A model generated the notes under the pieces. The model was given only the letters and a program-made list of their open reading frames with translations. It ran no database searches and had not been told where the DNA came from. This document shows, in pieces, positions 1 through 5,095 of a stretch of 5,095 nt of DNA. Each line of letters opens with the position of its first letter. The stretch's first letter is position 1. Made by a program: the position numbers and the translations under genes. The DNA comes from Elusimicrobiota bacterium (lineage in GTDB: Bacteria; CG03; SLGR01; PWQF01), in contig PWOI01000138.1 of the NCBI GenBank assembly GCA_003557485.1, positions 1 through 5,095 on the forward strand, written 5' to 3'.

Positions 1-3000
1 TATTTTACCTCTCCGGGCATCAGCGGAAGCCTTATGAGTGTTGCGGGCGCTGGCGGGGTAGCCGGGTTTGTAACTCTCTTTGCTCAGAGGCGTGCGGGGG
101 CGGTGTCTGAAGGGGATGCAGTCGGGGAAGACGGGTTTGTGTTTTATGAATGGGACAGAGACCCCCGGCTGCTTGCCGAAGGCAGGTATGGACAATTGAG
201 GCCGGTAACAGATACCTCAGATGACGAAATAAAACGGTTTAATTTAAAGCTTGAAAGGGTAAAACACACTCTCCTTCGTGAAGGTTTTTTCAATGAAAGT
301 GATTTCGAGGTTAATATTAAAATCGTATTCCCTTCCTATAAAGCCGCATCTTTTTCCGGGGATATGATAAAAATTGATTTCCGGAGTTTCAGTAACGAGG
401 ATTTCCTTTATATTGTCATAAAGCACGAATTGACAGACCGTAAGCTTTCATCTCTGGATTCAGATATAGGGAGAACTTTCCGGGAAAACCCGGCATTGCG
501 GGAACTCTATACATTAACTGCGGTAAATGTTCTTGAAATGATGCGCCTCAGAAATGAGGATCCTTCAAGAGCATCAGCAATGCTGGATTTCTATAGGCAG
601 GCCGCATTCCGTAAAAGGGGAATATTTAAAATATATGAAAAGATAGTAAATGATACTTCTCATAATGACCCCTTTCTTTTTGCTCCTGAGTTGTTCCGGA
701 TGTTAAAGAGTGAGGAAGAAAAGGCCTACTTCCCATCTATGCGCCGGGCGGCGGCAAAACTCTCAAGTCTTTCAGATGAAGAGTTAAATGAAACATTTTT
801 AAGGCTTAGACTAAGGGTTATTTATAGAGCAATAAATGAGCAGAAAGAGATTTTCAGCGGTAAAAAGTTAATCCCGCTCAATGATGTAATGCCAGGCAGT
901 GTTCCGGTATCACTAAAGCCGTTTATGCCTTATGCGGAAGATGTCAGCTACAGTATTGACGGTGATAATGTTTTTGTAAGGGTCAGGCTTACGGATGACT
1001 TAGGAAGCGAAAAGTTTGCTTACTTTTATATGGGAGCTGACGACAATATTGAGCGTACATTGGGTAGCAGGGGAAAACTTTTCGGAAGAACATATACTGA
1101 GTGGAAGATAGCAAACCCCGGTATATTTTCATACAGGATAAGCAGTGATGAAAGTGAAAGAAGAATACTCAGGGATCGTCTTGTCAGGCTTCCTCTTTCA
1201 GAGCTTATAGGGGAAATAGGGGGAAAGGACGATGGCGGCAGGTTGAGAGAGAGAATTGAAAGTCTATTCGGCGAACTCCGTCTTGACAGAAGGCTGAGTT
1301 CAATAACCTGGCTCTATATATCCAACCTAATATTCGGCAAGAAGGTATCTTTGTCTTATAAGACGCGCGCCCTTTATAATGTTATTAACAGAATAATATT
1401 TCGGCACATTGAAAAGGTCTACCCGAAATTGTTTTTAGGGGAATTAGATTTGTCGGTGATGCCTCTGAAAGACCTTGAAATATGGCCTGTTATTGAAAAC
1501 CCGGATGCCGGTCCGGCGCTTTTGAGGTGGATGAGTGTTGAAAAAATACCCGGTCATCCTGAATCTTATGCAAATGCTGATAAGGTTTCAATATCCTGGA
1601 TTCTTGAATCAGTAGAAAGTAATTTTGAAAGGGGTGATAGTACGGCGGAGAAAGACAGGGTAAGAAAAGAGAAGCCGGAAGCCGGTTACAGCAGCATTGC
1701 TGCCCTTATAGGCTCTACAGTCTTCCTGATAGCTTCAATAGGGCTGGCGCATTATTTTAATGTGGAACTTGTTTCTTTAACAGAGAGCATCCGCCATTAT
1801 TTTGACGCCCTGGGGATAACCGGCGCTTTACCGGACGCCGGGTTCTTATTAAAAGCTGCAGTTTTTGGAATAGGTTTCCTGGGATATATGTTTGCCGCAT
1901 CTGCCGGTGAAAGGGATGGCTCTGATGAAAAATCGCGGCTGCTTAATTTTATGGAGCAGGCGCAAAAATCCGGCAGGGATGAATACTGTTTAAAAGTTTC
2001 TATAGAGCTTGCCAAAACATTGATTGAAGAGGGAGAAGAAGCGGTTGTTATGGCATCGCACGGTTCAAGATTGCCCTTTAGAGACAGGGATGGTGATGAA
2101 ATTTTCCATTACTGGGTAGAGACGCCCCGGTATGTCCTGGACGCATTTCCCCAGGGGCTGGATAGTTATCGGGCGTATGTGTCTGCATACGAAGTAGACG
2201 GATTGGTAATAATTGAAAAAGATAAGCTTCTTCCACATATATATTTAACAGGCAGGCCTGCATATAGTTATGAATTGGGCCTTGATTATTCGGAGCTTGC
2301 AAAAGGTTACGGTTACCGGCGTTACGATGAGGGCCGGGCAAACCTGCTTACTTTATCCGGCATTGTTGCCGGGGCTGTTTTGGCAGCCGTATCAGGTATT
2401 TCATTTATGATAACTGTTGTCTATGCTGCCTTCTTCGCTTACACGGTTTTTAACGCTTACCGATACTTAAAAAGCCGCCGCCGCTTATCAGGTGCGGATC
2501 CGCTTCAGTGTGAAGATAAAATTAAATGGTATACTGAAACAGTCCGTAGAGCTCTTGCCGGAGTTCGTCTGCCTGAATATGTAGAAAACCGAGTTAAGGA
2601 TACTCTAGTAAACCTTCTTTTGGTAGACCCTTCTCCGAATTATGAAGAAGTTGGAGGTGCTCTTGAAGGTATCAAAGGATTAAAGAAAGAAGAAATTTTT
2701 AATATTTCCAATTCTGTTGTTGAGCAGAGGATAGGGCTTCTTGTTTCCGAAAGAAAGCGGGTTTACAGGCTGCTTAAGGAATGGCCGGCGGCGGTTTCGG
2801 TTTTCGGGAGCGCCCGTCCTGAAGGTGTGGATCAGTTTAAAGTGGATGCCGAGGAACTGGGCGCCGGTATATACTCTCGAGGGTGGGCTGTAAGGACGGG
2901 AGCCGGACCGGCAATAATGGAATGGCCGCTTGCCGGGTATATATCCGCAAGGGGAGAAACGTACGGTCCGGAAAATATGACGCAGGGAAGCAGGATAGTC

Positions 3001-5095
3001 CTTCCTTTTGAGCAGGAGATCAATCCTTTTGAAGAGGCCTCGGATGCTTACGATATAAAATTCAGGAATTTCCCCAACAGAAAAATAGTCCTTCACGGCA
3101 ACTCTTACGGAACAGTTGCTTTTCCGGGCGGTATAGGAACTATTGATGAGATATTTGAAGTTCTCCGCAGAAACAAGACTCTTGTTCTTTATGGTTCAAG
3201 GTTTTACAAACCATTTATTGATGAACTTCTCAGAATGGGAGTCCTGGAAGATGCCGGAAGAACTTTCAGGGGAAGCAGAGTTTTCCGTAACCCGCACGGG
3301 GGAGAAGTTCTAATAAGCGATGATACCGAAATTCTGCAGGATTTCCTTGAAGAAAACAAAAGTATTCCGGTCCGCTCTGACAGAAACCGTATAGATAGGG
3401 TATCTGCTGAACTGGAAAATGGCCTCAGACGTATTAACAGCCTTGAAAAAAGTGTGGTGTTTGTAGGGGTTCCGGAGGGTGAAAATCAGCTGTACCTTGA
3501 GGGTGCCCTGCGGCTTGCAGGCTACCTCATATCAAAAGGAGCGGAAATAAGGCTGGGCAGCAGGAAACTTGTTGATGTTTTTGTTGAAAACCTGGACCCG
3601 GATAAACTGCAGGCAAATATATATATCAGGGAGGGGGATACTGAACTTACAGCGCTAGAAAGACTTATAGAAGACAATAAAAGAATTGAAACTGTTTCCT
3701 CATCGGCCCAGCAGGTGTTTTTATCGGAAAACGCGCTTGCTTATGTATTCCTGCCGGACGGGCTCGGCGCCCAGAACCGGCTTTTTGATATAGCGGCTCA
3801 GATACAGACAGGCCTTATGCCGAAAAAACCGGTAATACTTCTGGGAAGGGAGTTCTGGCAGCCCCTGATTGATGTAATTGAAAAAATTACTACCGATCCC
3901 GGCGTTCTCGGGAGCGATACGCCTCTAATATCTGATGGAGATATGGATATTTTTACAGTTGTTGATACACCGGAGGAAGCCGGGAATATAATAGAGCAGG
4001 CGATGCGCTCAAGTAAGAAAAAGGCGGAAAAGAAAGAAATAACCGCATTGCCCCATACCCGGGAAAGTATATCATCTATAGCCGGGAATATAACTGAAAA
4101 GTACAGGAAGAAACGCGCCGCCGGACAGAAGACAGGACTCATTGTTGCTGTTGACGGGTTTATTGGCTCGGGTAAAAGCACTCTCTTGAAAATGCTTAAA
4201 GAAGAAATTCCGGAAACGGAATACGCGGTGTTTTTGTCAGTAGATGACTTAGGTTATAAAGAGGTTACAAAAAGGGCGGAATTGATATATTACGCAGGCG
4301 GGGTTGCAGTTGTTGAAGGCCTGGGAAGTTTTTCAATTACGCGCGGCCTTGCCGATAGGGATGGTATAGATTTTTCAGTTTTTGTGACAGCGGATTTTAG
4401 TGCAAGGTTTCGTAATATACTGAAGCGTTCGTTTTTTGATATACCTTTCGGGTGGGATTCTTTAAGCACAGATTCTTTTTCGGATAGGGCAATGGACAGG
4501 GTTGTTTTTCTTTTTGCCGGGTTTATTGCTTTTATTTCTCATAGTTTAGGGGCAGTTTGGGGAAGCGCTGTCTCCTCTATTAAAACAAATCTTGGAATGA
4601 AAAGGGTAGTTGACGATGCCGATGTAATAATTGACAGTTCAAGGGATAAAACAGCCTCCTCTTTTATACTTCTTTTATTGGCATCTGCAGCTTTAGCGGT
4701 TTCGGGTTCGCTAATTTATGCTTTCTTTCCCCAGGCAGTTTCCCTGATTGAAAATATTGTGGAATATCTTTCTGCGGTAGGAGTAACTTCACCCTTGCCG
4801 GAAGCTGCTGACGAATCCATCAGGACAGCGTCAATATCTTCTTTTTCTTTGTTGCCGGGGTTTATGCTGGCGCTGAAGTCAGTTGTTCAAGGCGGGAAGC
4901 GCCGCGAAAAAGATATAAAAGCAAGGCAGAAAACTGTATCATCCGGCTTTGAGGGGCTCCGGCTGCATAATAAAATTGCGGGAGAGGGCTTGCTTTTTAT
5001 GGGCATCCCTGCAGGCAGGGAAGGTTTTACCGGGGGCCTTTCATATATCCGCCGTAATGGGTATCTATATGGCCCTGAAGATGAGGCGCTGGAGA
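1..5095 (+). CDS. Giant multidomain membrane protein, internal fragment (both ends outside window)
   Basis: Frame 1 is open from the first to the last base: 1698 full codons plus one base, with no TAA, TAG or TGA. Neither the start codon nor the stop is present, so the real protein is longer, possibly by a lot. The frame is clearly coding: it carries recognisable motifs far apart in the same phase, including a LOG PGGIGTIDE at residues 1042-1050 and a Walker A GFIGSGKST at 1386-1394. Domain order is: possible membrane segment, decayed zincin-like region, helical region, beta-rich region, charged region, membrane hairpin, soluble region, membrane hairpin, LOG domain, diverged LOG domain, uridine-kinase-like P-loop domain, membrane hairpin, unknown tail. 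Only two cysteines occur (C663, C837). Standard code suffices. I do not recognise the whole protein. The phylum suggestion (Omnitrophota) is inference; that all these domains form one polypeptide is seen directly, unless the assembly is wrong. Confidence 0.96.
16..93 (+). other. Possible membrane segment, residues ~6-31
   Basis: Residues 6-28 are uncharged and rich in Gly, Ala, Ser, Val and Phe, and are followed at once by the basic pair R30-R31. This fits either a weak transmembrane helix or the second half of a hairpin whose first helix lies upstream of the window. The high glycine content makes it less hydrophobic than the later segments, so it could also be a flexible linker. The basic flank would place its C-terminal end in the cytoplasm. 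Confidence 0.45.
283..540 (+). other. Zincin-like region with degenerate HExxH motif (HELTD)
   Basis: Residues about 95-180. Alternating strand-like segments (VNIKIVF at 104-110, MIKIDF at 122-127) lead into a helix FLYIVIKHELTD at 135-146. This resembles the strand-then-active-helix layout of zinc metallopeptidases, in which a hydrophobic helix carries HExxH. Here H142 and E143 are present but the second histidine is replaced by D146. The codon is GAC, one base away from the histidine codon CAC. Downstream acidic residues (E161, E168) are at plausible distances for a third ligand, but nothing fixes which one. Known of the family: loss of a zinc-binding histidine normally abolishes activity. 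Inferred: an inactive peptidase relic or structural domain. A chance HExx match in an unrelated helical fold is quite possible. Confidence 0.35.
541..900 (+). other. Helical region, no recognised domain
   Basis: Residues about 181-300. The composition is strongly helical and charged, with regular spacing of Leu, Met and Phe against Arg, Lys and Glu, for example around ELFRMLKSEEEK (236-247) and ETFLRLRLRVIYR (265-277). No catalytic motif, signal sequence or long hydrophobic run is visible. It lies between the zincin-like region and the beta-rich region and could be the C-terminal helical half of the former. I cannot assign a function. Confidence 0.5.
940..1146 (+). other. Beta-rich domain, possibly a small beta-sandwich
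   Basis: Residues about 314-382. Strand-like stretches alternate with turn signals: YSIDGDNVFVRVRL (317-330), a DDLGSEKFAYFYMGADD run (332-348), then FGRTYTEWKIANPGIFSYRI (361-380). The ending NPGIFSYRIS has the look of the last strand of an Ig-like or carbohydrate-binding beta-sandwich, where a Pro-Gly turn precedes an aromatic strand. This is a reading of secondary structure only; no specific family is recognised and no ligand-binding residues can be named. Confidence 0.35.
1147..1680 (+). other. Charged, mostly helical region, no recognised domain
   Basis: Residues 383-560. It is rich in Arg, Lys, Glu and Leu, with amphipathic helices such as ERRILRDRLVRLPLSELI (386-403). Several tryptophans are spaced through it (434, 495, 510, 534). 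No motif known to me stands out. It ends in a basic stretch (EKDRVRKEKPE, 550-560) directly before the first clear membrane helix, which by the positive-inside rule places this region in the cytoplasm. Confidence 0.5.
1693..1905 (+). other. Membrane hairpin 1 (two transmembrane helices)
   Basis: Two hydrophobic helices, residues 565-586 (SIAALIGSTVFLIASIGLAHYF) and 614-635 (from GFLLKAAVF to MFAAS), flank a 27-residue loop. The upstream flank is strongly basic (K551 to K558) and the downstream flank starts ERDGSDEK, so both ends are most simply cytoplasmic, with the short loop outside. The loop holds a motif, VSLxExIxxY followed by AxGxTxxLPxA, that returns in the hairpin near the end of the window. 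The hairpin probably anchors the protein in the inner membrane. Confidence 0.8.
1771..1839 (+). repeat. Hairpin-loop repeat, copy A
   Basis: Residues 591-613. Aligned without gaps against residues 1580-1602, 12 of 23 positions are identical: V, S, L, E, I, Y, A, G, T, L, P, A. Several others are conservative (L/V, I/V, D/E). Both copies sit in the same place, immediately after a transmembrane helix and before a second hydrophobic helix. The repeat is at protein level only; the DNA of the two copies has diverged, so this is an old duplication. Confidence 0.7.
1906..2346 (+). other. Soluble region between hairpins 1 and 2, no recognised domain
   Basis: Residues 636-782. A helical start (LLNFMEQAQKSGRDEYCLKV, 647-666, with one of only two cysteines, C663) leads to a strand-like VVMASHGS (682-689). 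Mixed alpha/beta sequence follows, including VDGLVIIEKD (732-741) and HIYLTGRPAY (746-755). The SHGS element after a hydrophobic strand looks like a nucleotide- or phosphate-contacting loop, but I see no complete motif. By charge pattern it faces the cytoplasm. Function unknown. Confidence 0.5.
2347..2457 (+). other. Membrane hairpin 2 (two tightly packed transmembrane helices)
   Basis: Residues 783-819 form an uninterrupted run of about 37 hydrophobic residues, long enough for two short helices (about 783-799 and 802-819) with a turn near S797-G799. The run is followed by a strongly basic stretch, RYLKSRRR (821-828), and preceded by YRRYDEGR (773-779), so both ends appear cytoplasmic. Such TM pairs with a minimal turn are common membrane anchors. 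Unlike hairpin 1, it has no extended loop and no copy of the VSLxExI motif. Confidence 0.75.
2458..2793 (+). other. Helical linker between hairpin 2 and the LOG domain
   Basis: Residues 820-931. After the basic membrane flank comes a helical region. It includes KIKWYTETVRRALAGVRLPEY (840-860), split by prolines into short amphipathic helices, and a final helix ending VSERKRVYRLLKEWPA (915-930). That last helix runs directly into the first strand of the LOG domain and may be its N-terminal extension. C837, the second of two cysteines in the window, lies here. No catalytic motif is visible. Confidence 0.5.
2794..3360 (+). other. LOG-family phosphoribohydrolase-like domain (lysine decarboxylase-like fold), motif intact
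   Basis: Residues about 932-1120 follow the LOG family from end to end. VFGSARP (934-940) is the first nucleotide-binding strand and loop. TGAGPAIME (966-974) matches the family's GxGPGIMEA segment. RIVLPFEQEIN (998-1008) matches the LPxEQxxN segment seen in longer members. R1027-K1028 matches the conserved arginine-lysine pair, and PGGIGTIDE (1042-1050) is the full PGGxGTxxE signature with E1050. LOG enzymes split nucleoside 5'-monophosphates into free base and ribose 5-phosphate; in plants and some bacteria the substrate is a cytokinin nucleotide. Despite the old label, lysine decarboxylase activity is not expected. All hallmark residues I can check are present, so activity is plausible. 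The part after the signature (KTLVLYGSRFYKPFIDEL) is less canonical. Being embedded in a membrane-anchored giant protein is unusual, since LOG proteins are normally stand-alone, about 180-300 residues. Confidence 0.9.
3448..4008 (+). other. Second, diverged LOG-like domain, catalytic signature lost
   Basis: Residues about 1150-1336 repeat the LOG layout at the same spacing. The first strand VVFVGVPEG (1152-1160) corresponds to VSVFGSARPEG in the first domain, and LRLAGYLISKGAEIRLG (1170-1186) to the first helix and second strand. FLPDGLGAQNRLFD (1250-1263) lies where FPGGIGTIDEIFE is expected. The signature is degraded: PGG becomes PDG, T becomes A, and the glutamate becomes R1260. The GxGPxIME segment and RK pair are not found. 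The downstream part, QIQTG then KKPVILLGREFW (1276-1286), is very close to canonical LOG sequence, closer than in the first domain, so the homology is convincing. Known: LOG proteins act as dimers. Inferred: a pseudoenzyme half that pairs with the active domain within one chain. Confidence 0.75.
4009..4131 (+). other. Basic linker between second LOG-like domain and kinase-like domain
   Basis: Residues 1337-1377 include SSKKKAEKKE (1337-1346) and EKYRKKRAAGQK (1366-1377). Lysine and arginine dominate, with no hydrophobic core signal until the kinase strand begins at 1379. It is probably a flexible or helical cytoplasmic linker, and the basic charge agrees with a cytoplasmic location of both neighbouring domains. 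Confidence 0.6.
4132..4650 (+). other. P-loop kinase-like domain of the uridine kinase / phosphoribulokinase type, shortened and interrupted
   Basis: Residues about 1378-1550. GLIVAVDGFIGSGKSTLLKML shows strand 1 plus Walker A, with G1386, G1391, K1392, S1393 and T1394. FLSVDD (1411-1416) matches the strand ending in the conserved aspartate of uridine kinases. VAVVEG (1435-1440) matches their ViEG segment. D1457 followed by FSVFVTAD (1458-1465) and RFRNILKR (1469-1476) matches the D-x-x-iFVda ... RRxxR lid region. ADVIID (1540-1545) matches the late ADxII strand. The family phosphorylates nucleosides or pentose phosphates with ATP. Two things are odd. Only about 19 residues separate the aspartates from VAVVEG, where typical enzymes such as E. 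coli Udk have about 60 that bind the nucleoside. In addition, a hydrophobic run (1501-1520) is inserted before ADVIID. ATP binding is likely; phosphorylation of a normal nucleoside is doubtful. Confidence 0.8.
4501..4560 (+). other. Hydrophobic segment inside the kinase-like domain
   Basis: Residues 1501-1520 (VVFLFAGFIAFISHSLGAVW) lack charge and are as hydrophobic as a transmembrane helix, flanked by D1499-R1500 before and K1528 and K1534-R1535 after. It lies between the LKR lid motif and the ADVIID strand of the kinase. If it crossed the membrane alone, the last kinase strand would end up on the opposite side from the P-loop. A monotopic (in-plane) helix, a buried packing helix, or a re-entrant loop is therefore more consistent with the domain around it. 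Confidence 0.55.
4660..4878 (+). other. Membrane hairpin 3 (diverged copy of hairpin 1)
   Basis: A clear transmembrane helix covers residues 1554-1576 (SFILLLLASAALAVSGSLIY then AFF). A weaker hydrophobic segment, about 1610-1626 (ASISSFSLLPGFMLALK), follows after a loop of about 33 residues. The downstream flank GGKRREKDIKARQK is strongly basic, which puts the C-terminal end in the cytoplasm, as for hairpin 1. The loop carries the same VSLxExI motif as hairpin 1, so the two hairpins are homologous. The second helix is less certain because of its serines and proline. Confidence 0.7.
4738..4806 (+). repeat. Hairpin-loop repeat, copy B
   Basis: Residues 1580-1602, the partner of the copy at residues 591-613 (12 of 23 identical, ungapped). 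It begins VSLIENIVEY and ends in GVTSPLPEA. It starts four residues after the end of the preceding transmembrane helix, the same arrangement as in copy A. The two copies are 2,967 bases apart, exactly 989 codons. Confidence 0.7.
4879..5095 (+). other. C-terminal part of the window, start of an unrecognised region
   Basis: Residues 1627-1698. A basic cytoplasmic flank (KRREKDIKARQK, 1633-1644) is followed by glycine-rich mixed sequence, including IAGEGLLFMGIPAG (1659-1672) and GGLSYIRRNGYLYG (1678-1691). This looks like the beginning of a new folded domain that continues beyond the window. I do not recognise it. Confidence 0.5.

Follow-up and report, generated by a model that had tools for sequence, protein, structure and literature searches.

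A stop-free contig of an Elusimicrobiota bacterium as a probable inner part of a giant modular protein with a tandem LOG pair

Introduction

Giant open reading frames have been described in Omnitrophota, among them the one encoding a 39,678-amino-acid (aa) protein of Velamenicoccus archaeovorus (Seymour et al. 2023, PMC10066038). Such proteins are very long, have many transmembrane segments and few recognised domains, and are poorly conserved; a surface role in contact with host or prey has been proposed for them (PMC10066038). Gigantic Omnitrophota proteins that combine polysaccharide enzymes, methylases, peptidases and transmembrane segments in one chain are treated in a second paper (PMC12419801). 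Ca. Menyafoubacter, a PVC-side lineage with soda-lake relatives, has a large secreted protein of ~6,000 aa with a signal peptide (PMC12057145), and the same paper cites reports of giant genes in Elusimicrobia and CG03. Because giant mosaic proteins have already been described, the kind itself is known; most accounts of giant bacterial proteins so far treat them as surface chains that are hard to annotate.

Here we describe a 5,095-nucleotide stretch of DNA (the window), which is the whole of contig C154 in a 2.07-Mb, 212-contig metagenome-assembled genome. This genome is referred to as G000; G002, G003 and G005 are genomes of the same order.

Results

One open frame spans the contig

The window consists of a single open frame of 1,698 codons (1..5094, on the forward strand, as are all features given below), which contains no stop and is open at both contig ends by frame analysis. 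The other five frames hold 50-147 stops, and ~104 would be expected at the base composition of the window (log10 P = -46.6 for none). A codon-usage score learnt from the remaining giant frames in the window's own genome favoured frame +1 in all 54 sliding windows and therefore indicates no hidden frameshift, a point that the preliminary description had marked for checking. Its claim that the window lies wholly inside one stop-free frame is borne out by the missing stops and by the uniform coding signal. No overlap was detectable between either end of C154 and the other contigs of the same genome, and the whole window protein, searched against sequence collections, found no match.

Membrane hairpins and unrecognised stretches

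The frame begins with a weak hydrophobic segment (aa 10-28, 28..84; hydropathy 1.63), followed by an unrecognised stretch (aa 35-560, 103..1680) that matches no Pfam family and to which comparison with 99,343 aa of giant frames brought up no relative. Inside this stretch lies HELTD (aa 142-146, nt 424-438), an incomplete HExxH; a complete HExxH and a metallopeptidase family match are both absent from the window. The decayed peptidase-like region reported earlier reduces to this lone motif, with no peptidase match in Pfam and no relative, and is not retained.

Membrane hairpin 1 (aa 562-636, 1684..1908; hydropathy 2.09 and 1.79) resembles a hairpin in G005:C68 (E 2e-4). The region that follows (aa 637-778, 1909..2334) is alpha then beta in character and surrounds Cys663, one of only two Cys in the window; a papain/transglutaminase-like fold was considered for it and set aside, the Cys-His-Asp arrangement having been seen by eye only, with no Pfam or PDB match and an unusable model (pLDDT 44). 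Next come a long hydrophobic stretch, possibly a tight hairpin (aa 779-818, 2335..2454; hydropathy 2.26), and a helical lead-in shared with G005:C36 (aa 844-930, 2530..2790). Towards the 3' end, a further membrane hairpin (aa 1550-1630, 4648..4890) is related to a hairpin of G000:C182 (E 0.003-0.004), and the contig end cuts off the beginning of another unrecognised domain (4891..5094; no Pfam family, no relative). The window thus contains at least six transmembrane segments, and hydropathy supports the membrane hairpins noticed previously.

A tandem LOG pair and a P-loop domain

The nucleotide enzymes of the preliminary description are recovered as two LOG domains in tandem (PF03641, E 5e-20 in Pfam; TIGR00730, E 3e-24 in NCBIfam) and a P-loop domain. 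LOG domain 1 (LOG1; aa 920-1130, 2758..3390) keeps both motifs of the family, FxxRK (FPNRK, nt 3070) and PGGxGTxxE (PGGIGTIDE, nt 3124), and most resembles LOG enzymes of solved structure (5wq3, E 2e-20). In LOG domain 2 (LOG2; aa 1150-1346, 3448..4038; PDB 5its, E 8e-6) the glycine motif is broken (PDGLGAQN, nt 3754). Since the second domain is degenerate in the relatives from G005 and G003 as well as in the window, the sequences suggest a conserved pair, with one active and one inactive member. LOG enzymes act as dimers. The window's pair is free of Cys, unlike the genome's free-standing LOG, which does contain it. Relatives of the pair (30-37%) were also seen on viral contigs (L169-L180).

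The P-loop domain (aa 1377-1545, 4129..4635) is kinase-like in its motifs, with a Walker A sequence (GFIGSGKST, nt 4156) and a uridine-kinase-like end motif (DADVIID, nt 4615), and is split by a hydrophobic helix (aa 1501-1519). It scores below every family cut-off, the best Pfam value being 19.9 bits against a cut-off of 27 (dNK / udk-type kinases).

Relatives in the same genome and order

Other long frames in the window's genome measure 5,315, 2,293, 1,667 and 1,385 aa, the longest being 15.9 kb and open at its 5' end. C169 (5,315 aa) has a stop and C144 (1,016 aa) a start; C119 accounts for the frame of 2,293 aa. The one gene start and the one gene end seen in this genome therefore both lie on contigs other than C154. 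Within the phylum, LOG in long frames is confined to the window's genome, G003 and G005: the pair occurs in G005:C36 (1,668 aa, 41% identity to that of the window) and in G003:C106 (3,683 aa, a single frame over an 11-kb contig, 35% identity). The region after the pair in G005:C36 resembles C182 of the window's genome (33%, 1e-77), as does the hairpin of the window, and by this similarity C182 may be part of the same gene. C158 and C182 are joined in frame by a 13-nt overlap, and one repeated module spans the join. If all pieces belong to one gene, we would put its product at about 13,400 aa.

Giant frames of the same order attain 40.2 kb and 35.6 kb, and G002:C25 carries two giants in tandem, a 13,409-aa frame that has its stop and an 11,860-aa frame that has its start. 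These lengths, together with the LOG pair in long frames of two same-order genomes, uphold the earlier view of the window as an inner piece of a giant mosaic protein that runs past both ends. On G002:C25 (L105-L107, L128, L129) a 202-aa frame lies between the two giants, and the 76.6-kb contig is almost filled. C169 (L030 3-15947) and G005:C41 (L044 2575-19458) are partly collinear giants, with 31-34% identity over about 2,400 aa; the block that G005:C41 has in addition is found in G000:C119 instead.

The preliminary assignment to Omnitrophota, by contrast, is not supported. The window's phylum comprises 16 species in the searched genome set, against 276 Omnitrophota species in one study (PMC10066038), and two same-order genomes were deposited as Elusimicrobia (G005, PWEK01, 'Elusimicrobia bacterium T1Sed10_83R1') and Candidatus Sumerlaeota (G003, SLGR01, 'Candidatus Sumerlaeota bacterium CSSed165cm_109').

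A carrier with a defined start and end

An N-module of ~520 aa, which opens with a signal-peptide-like sequence (e.g., MKFASSIYTKIICWVITAGMVFTSVINDYAYA in C144), stands at the head of frames, often giant ones, in four genomes of the order (G000, G002, G003 and G005). It was also found in 14 of the remaining 370 genomes in the sample, which makes a giant-protein family common to several phyla plausible; one more distant genome with the module has an 11,357-aa frame that is closed on both sides and contains no N. An apparent frame of 24,620 aa in G242 was dropped, as it passes through stretches of N. A TraB/TIKI-like reading of the N-module, prompted by its DLHxN and GGFH motifs, found no Pfam or PDB match and was abandoned. 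In G000:C144 and G005:C41 the giant start is preceded by a conserved frame of 379-383 aa (L111, L044) with a signal-peptide-like start of its own and a GDPYSFYPS motif.

At the other end, a C-terminal tail of ~250 aa is common to C169, G003:C226, G005:C136 and C7, and C142, among others. The minimal member (G005:C2, L112 2239-5532) is a 1,098-aa frame made up essentially of N-module and tail; it sits between two other members of the carrier family. A further module, RGPP + HE[IL]NEY, scores strongly in 3 of 386 genomes, and every such occurrence lies in a long frame; its fold was modelled with middling confidence (pLDDT 63) and had no match in the PDB. Neither the N-module nor the tail is present in the window, so we infer its membership of the exported carrier family from its relatives in the same genome and order.

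Enzyme cargo

Cargo was called across the giant frames by Pfam. In the window's genome it includes phosphohexomutase and glucosamine-6-phosphate isomerase (C158), a methyltransferase (C182) and a metallophosphatase (C119). In G003 it includes glutamate dehydrogenase (GDH), MttB, FBPase and PPDK (C148); phosphohexomutase and PEPCK (C163); PPDK and a methyltransferase (C115); a peptidase M3 that keeps HEFGH, and HEAT (C12); GH65, PIG-L and LOG (C106); and SecA (C226). Glycogen synthase is found in G005 (C3, C7), and amylase, PLD, VanW and ABC1 in G002. Support for a GAPDH-like region is weak (E 0.0013), and the GH65 of C95 was excluded as the product of an ordinary separate gene. Active-site motifs are kept in LOG1 and in three of four PGM copies, and are lost in the PGM of G005:C3. 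PEPCK and the GAPDH-like region each contain a single Cys, which we take to be that of the active site. Free-standing phosphohexomutase and LOG genes are present in G000, G003 and G005; the copies in the giants are therefore extra, and for these two enzymes metabolic replacement, with the giants as the only copies, is ruled out.

The SecA DEAD, preprotein-binding and wing domains of G003:C226 (L074, about 12796-15150) lie within a Cys-free stretch of a 6,000-aa frame, so that part of the translocase sits inside a chain that is itself probably exported. A divergent SecA DEAD domain reportedly occurs in Omnitrophota giant ORFs; domain search found none in the window. In another giant frame (G003:C93, L046), an Imm5-like immunity-protein domain (E 1e-14) adjoins an MttB domain.

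Composition and topology

The control sets used for composition are small, with 14 proteins in the signal-peptide set and signal peptides called by hydropathy only; the giants have a median Cys content of 0.14%, whereas it is 1.24% in the soluble set (p 1e-31 against the giants) and 0.32% in the signal-peptide set (p 0.15). The recognised enzyme cargo alone gives the same 0.14%. Net charge behaves similarly: -4.3% in the giants, -3.6 in signal-peptide controls (p 0.79) and near zero in soluble controls (p 7e-19). Because the giants match the signal-peptide proteins of these genomes in both measures, and not the soluble ones, we infer that they are exported, with catalytic residues retained. 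The window has 2 Cys where 22.9 are expected (P 3e-8); its net charge of -1.4% is intermediate and nearer neutral than that of the other giants. The charges around 15 hairpins gave no signal of positive-inside topology (p 0.79).

Discussion

It is rather probable, in our view, that the window codes for an inner part of a giant protein whose modules are built onto an exported carrier. Genes of this family start with the N-module and end with the C-terminal tail, with variable cargo between them, and the cargo blocks, many of them enzymes, are spaced by membrane hairpins and repeated modules. The chain would pass the inner membrane through Sec and function outside the cytoplasm, with its hairpins fixing it to the envelope. 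To judge from the motifs, LOG1 may be an active domain of the nucleotide phosphoribohydrolase type and LOG2 the inactive half of a pseudo-dimer formed within one chain; the P-loop domain would phosphorylate a small molecule. As to role, our guess is the processing of nucleotides and sugars at a cell surface that touches other cells or debris, because published proposals for similar giants point that way. Several observations count against this reading: the window itself shows neither N-module nor tail, its net charge is closer to neutral than that of other giants, the hairpin charges carry no topology signal, and LOG, kinase, PEPCK and PPDK need substrates or cofactors that are normally cytoplasmic.

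A bolder version holds that these bacteria export very large single chains, in one relative no shorter than 13,000 aa, with working copies of enzymes from core carbon and nucleotide metabolism (phosphohexomutase, GAPDH-like, FBPase, PEPCK, PPDK, GDH, glycogen synthase and LOG), so that part of central metabolism would run beyond the cytoplasm, on the cell surface or within cells under attack. We regard this as unlikely. Exported core-metabolism enzymes with their active-site residues kept would, if true, be unexpected.

A chain tethered to the membrane with its enzymes in the cytoplasm is the first alternative, and one we judge unlikely. Its hairpins would dip into the inner membrane, and the enzymes would organise nucleotide and sugar-phosphate metabolism; the even number of hairpins between enzyme blocks, the cytoplasmic nature of the cargo enzymes and the positively charged ends that flank hairpin 1 of the window would all fit. 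It accords poorly with the signal-peptide-like starts of the family and with an acidic, nearly Cys-free composition typical of exported proteins, and the 15 hairpins lack the positive-inside signal.

Embedded peptidases might instead cut the giant chain into separate enzymes after synthesis, as in a polyprotein. HExxH motifs do occur in many giant frames, including the intact HEFGH of the peptidase M3 in G003:C12; however, no cleavage site was recognised, the window has only the incomplete motif, and the model of the RGPP-HExxE module is of middling confidence and matches no fold. This makes processing distinctly unlikely as the explanation, although it is compatible with export and both could be true together.

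That the frame is a degenerating passenger, its decaying cargo copies open by chance or serving only as spacers or adhesins, strikes us as very improbable. The degenerate LOG2, the PGM copy of G005:C3 and the large unrecognised parts are what decay would produce; set against them are the motifs kept in LOG1 and in most PGM copies, the presumed active-site Cys of PEPCK and the GAPDH-like region, which persist in chains nearly devoid of Cys, and the absence of the 104 expected stops. That the contig is misassembled, or that its ends cut a protein of ordinary size, is hardly credible: the contig is short, comes from a 212-contig draft and has no end overlaps, but its coding is uniform in one frame, and homologous long frames recur in independent assemblies, with much longer ones in better assemblies.

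The exported-carrier reading brings together a family with a defined start, a defined end, a minimal form that lacks cargo, enzymes that can be recognised as cargo, and a test of composition that speaks for export. The vague question of what giant proteins are for thereby becomes one for the bench, through export of the short carrier and activity of the LOG, phosphohexomutase and PEPCK cargo.

Comparison with known systems

LOG1 shares FxxRK and PGGxGTxxE with the LOG family (cytokinin riboside 5'-monophosphate phosphoribohydrolase; 5wq3, 5its); the window differs in having two LOG domains in tandem within a giant chain, the second degenerate and the pair without Cys. The Ca. Menyafoubacter protein is alike in its size, its signal peptide, its PVC-side lineage and its soda-lake relatives, but lacks transmembrane helices and has beta-helix, adhesin and Rhs-type domains (PMC12057145); none of these domains is seen here. 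The giants of the Lipocone paper are likewise mosaics of enzymes and transmembrane segments in one chain; no Lipocone domain was identified here, and the passage of that paper on the giants does not speak of LOG pair, PGM, PEPCK, PPDK or GDH cargo (PMC12419801). In the literature searched, preprints apart, we found no description of core carbon enzymes as cargo of giant proteins. With the Omnitrophota giant ORFs, for which the criterion is >20 kb (the contig of the window has 5.1 kb), the family has in common very long frames that are poorly conserved, contain few recognised domains and have transmembrane segments in number, and a surface role in contact with host or prey has been proposed for those ORFs. 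It differs from them in belonging to a genome that its kinship places outside Omnitrophota, in a cargo rich in core carbon and nucleotide enzymes, and in its defined N-module, C-terminal tail and export-like composition.
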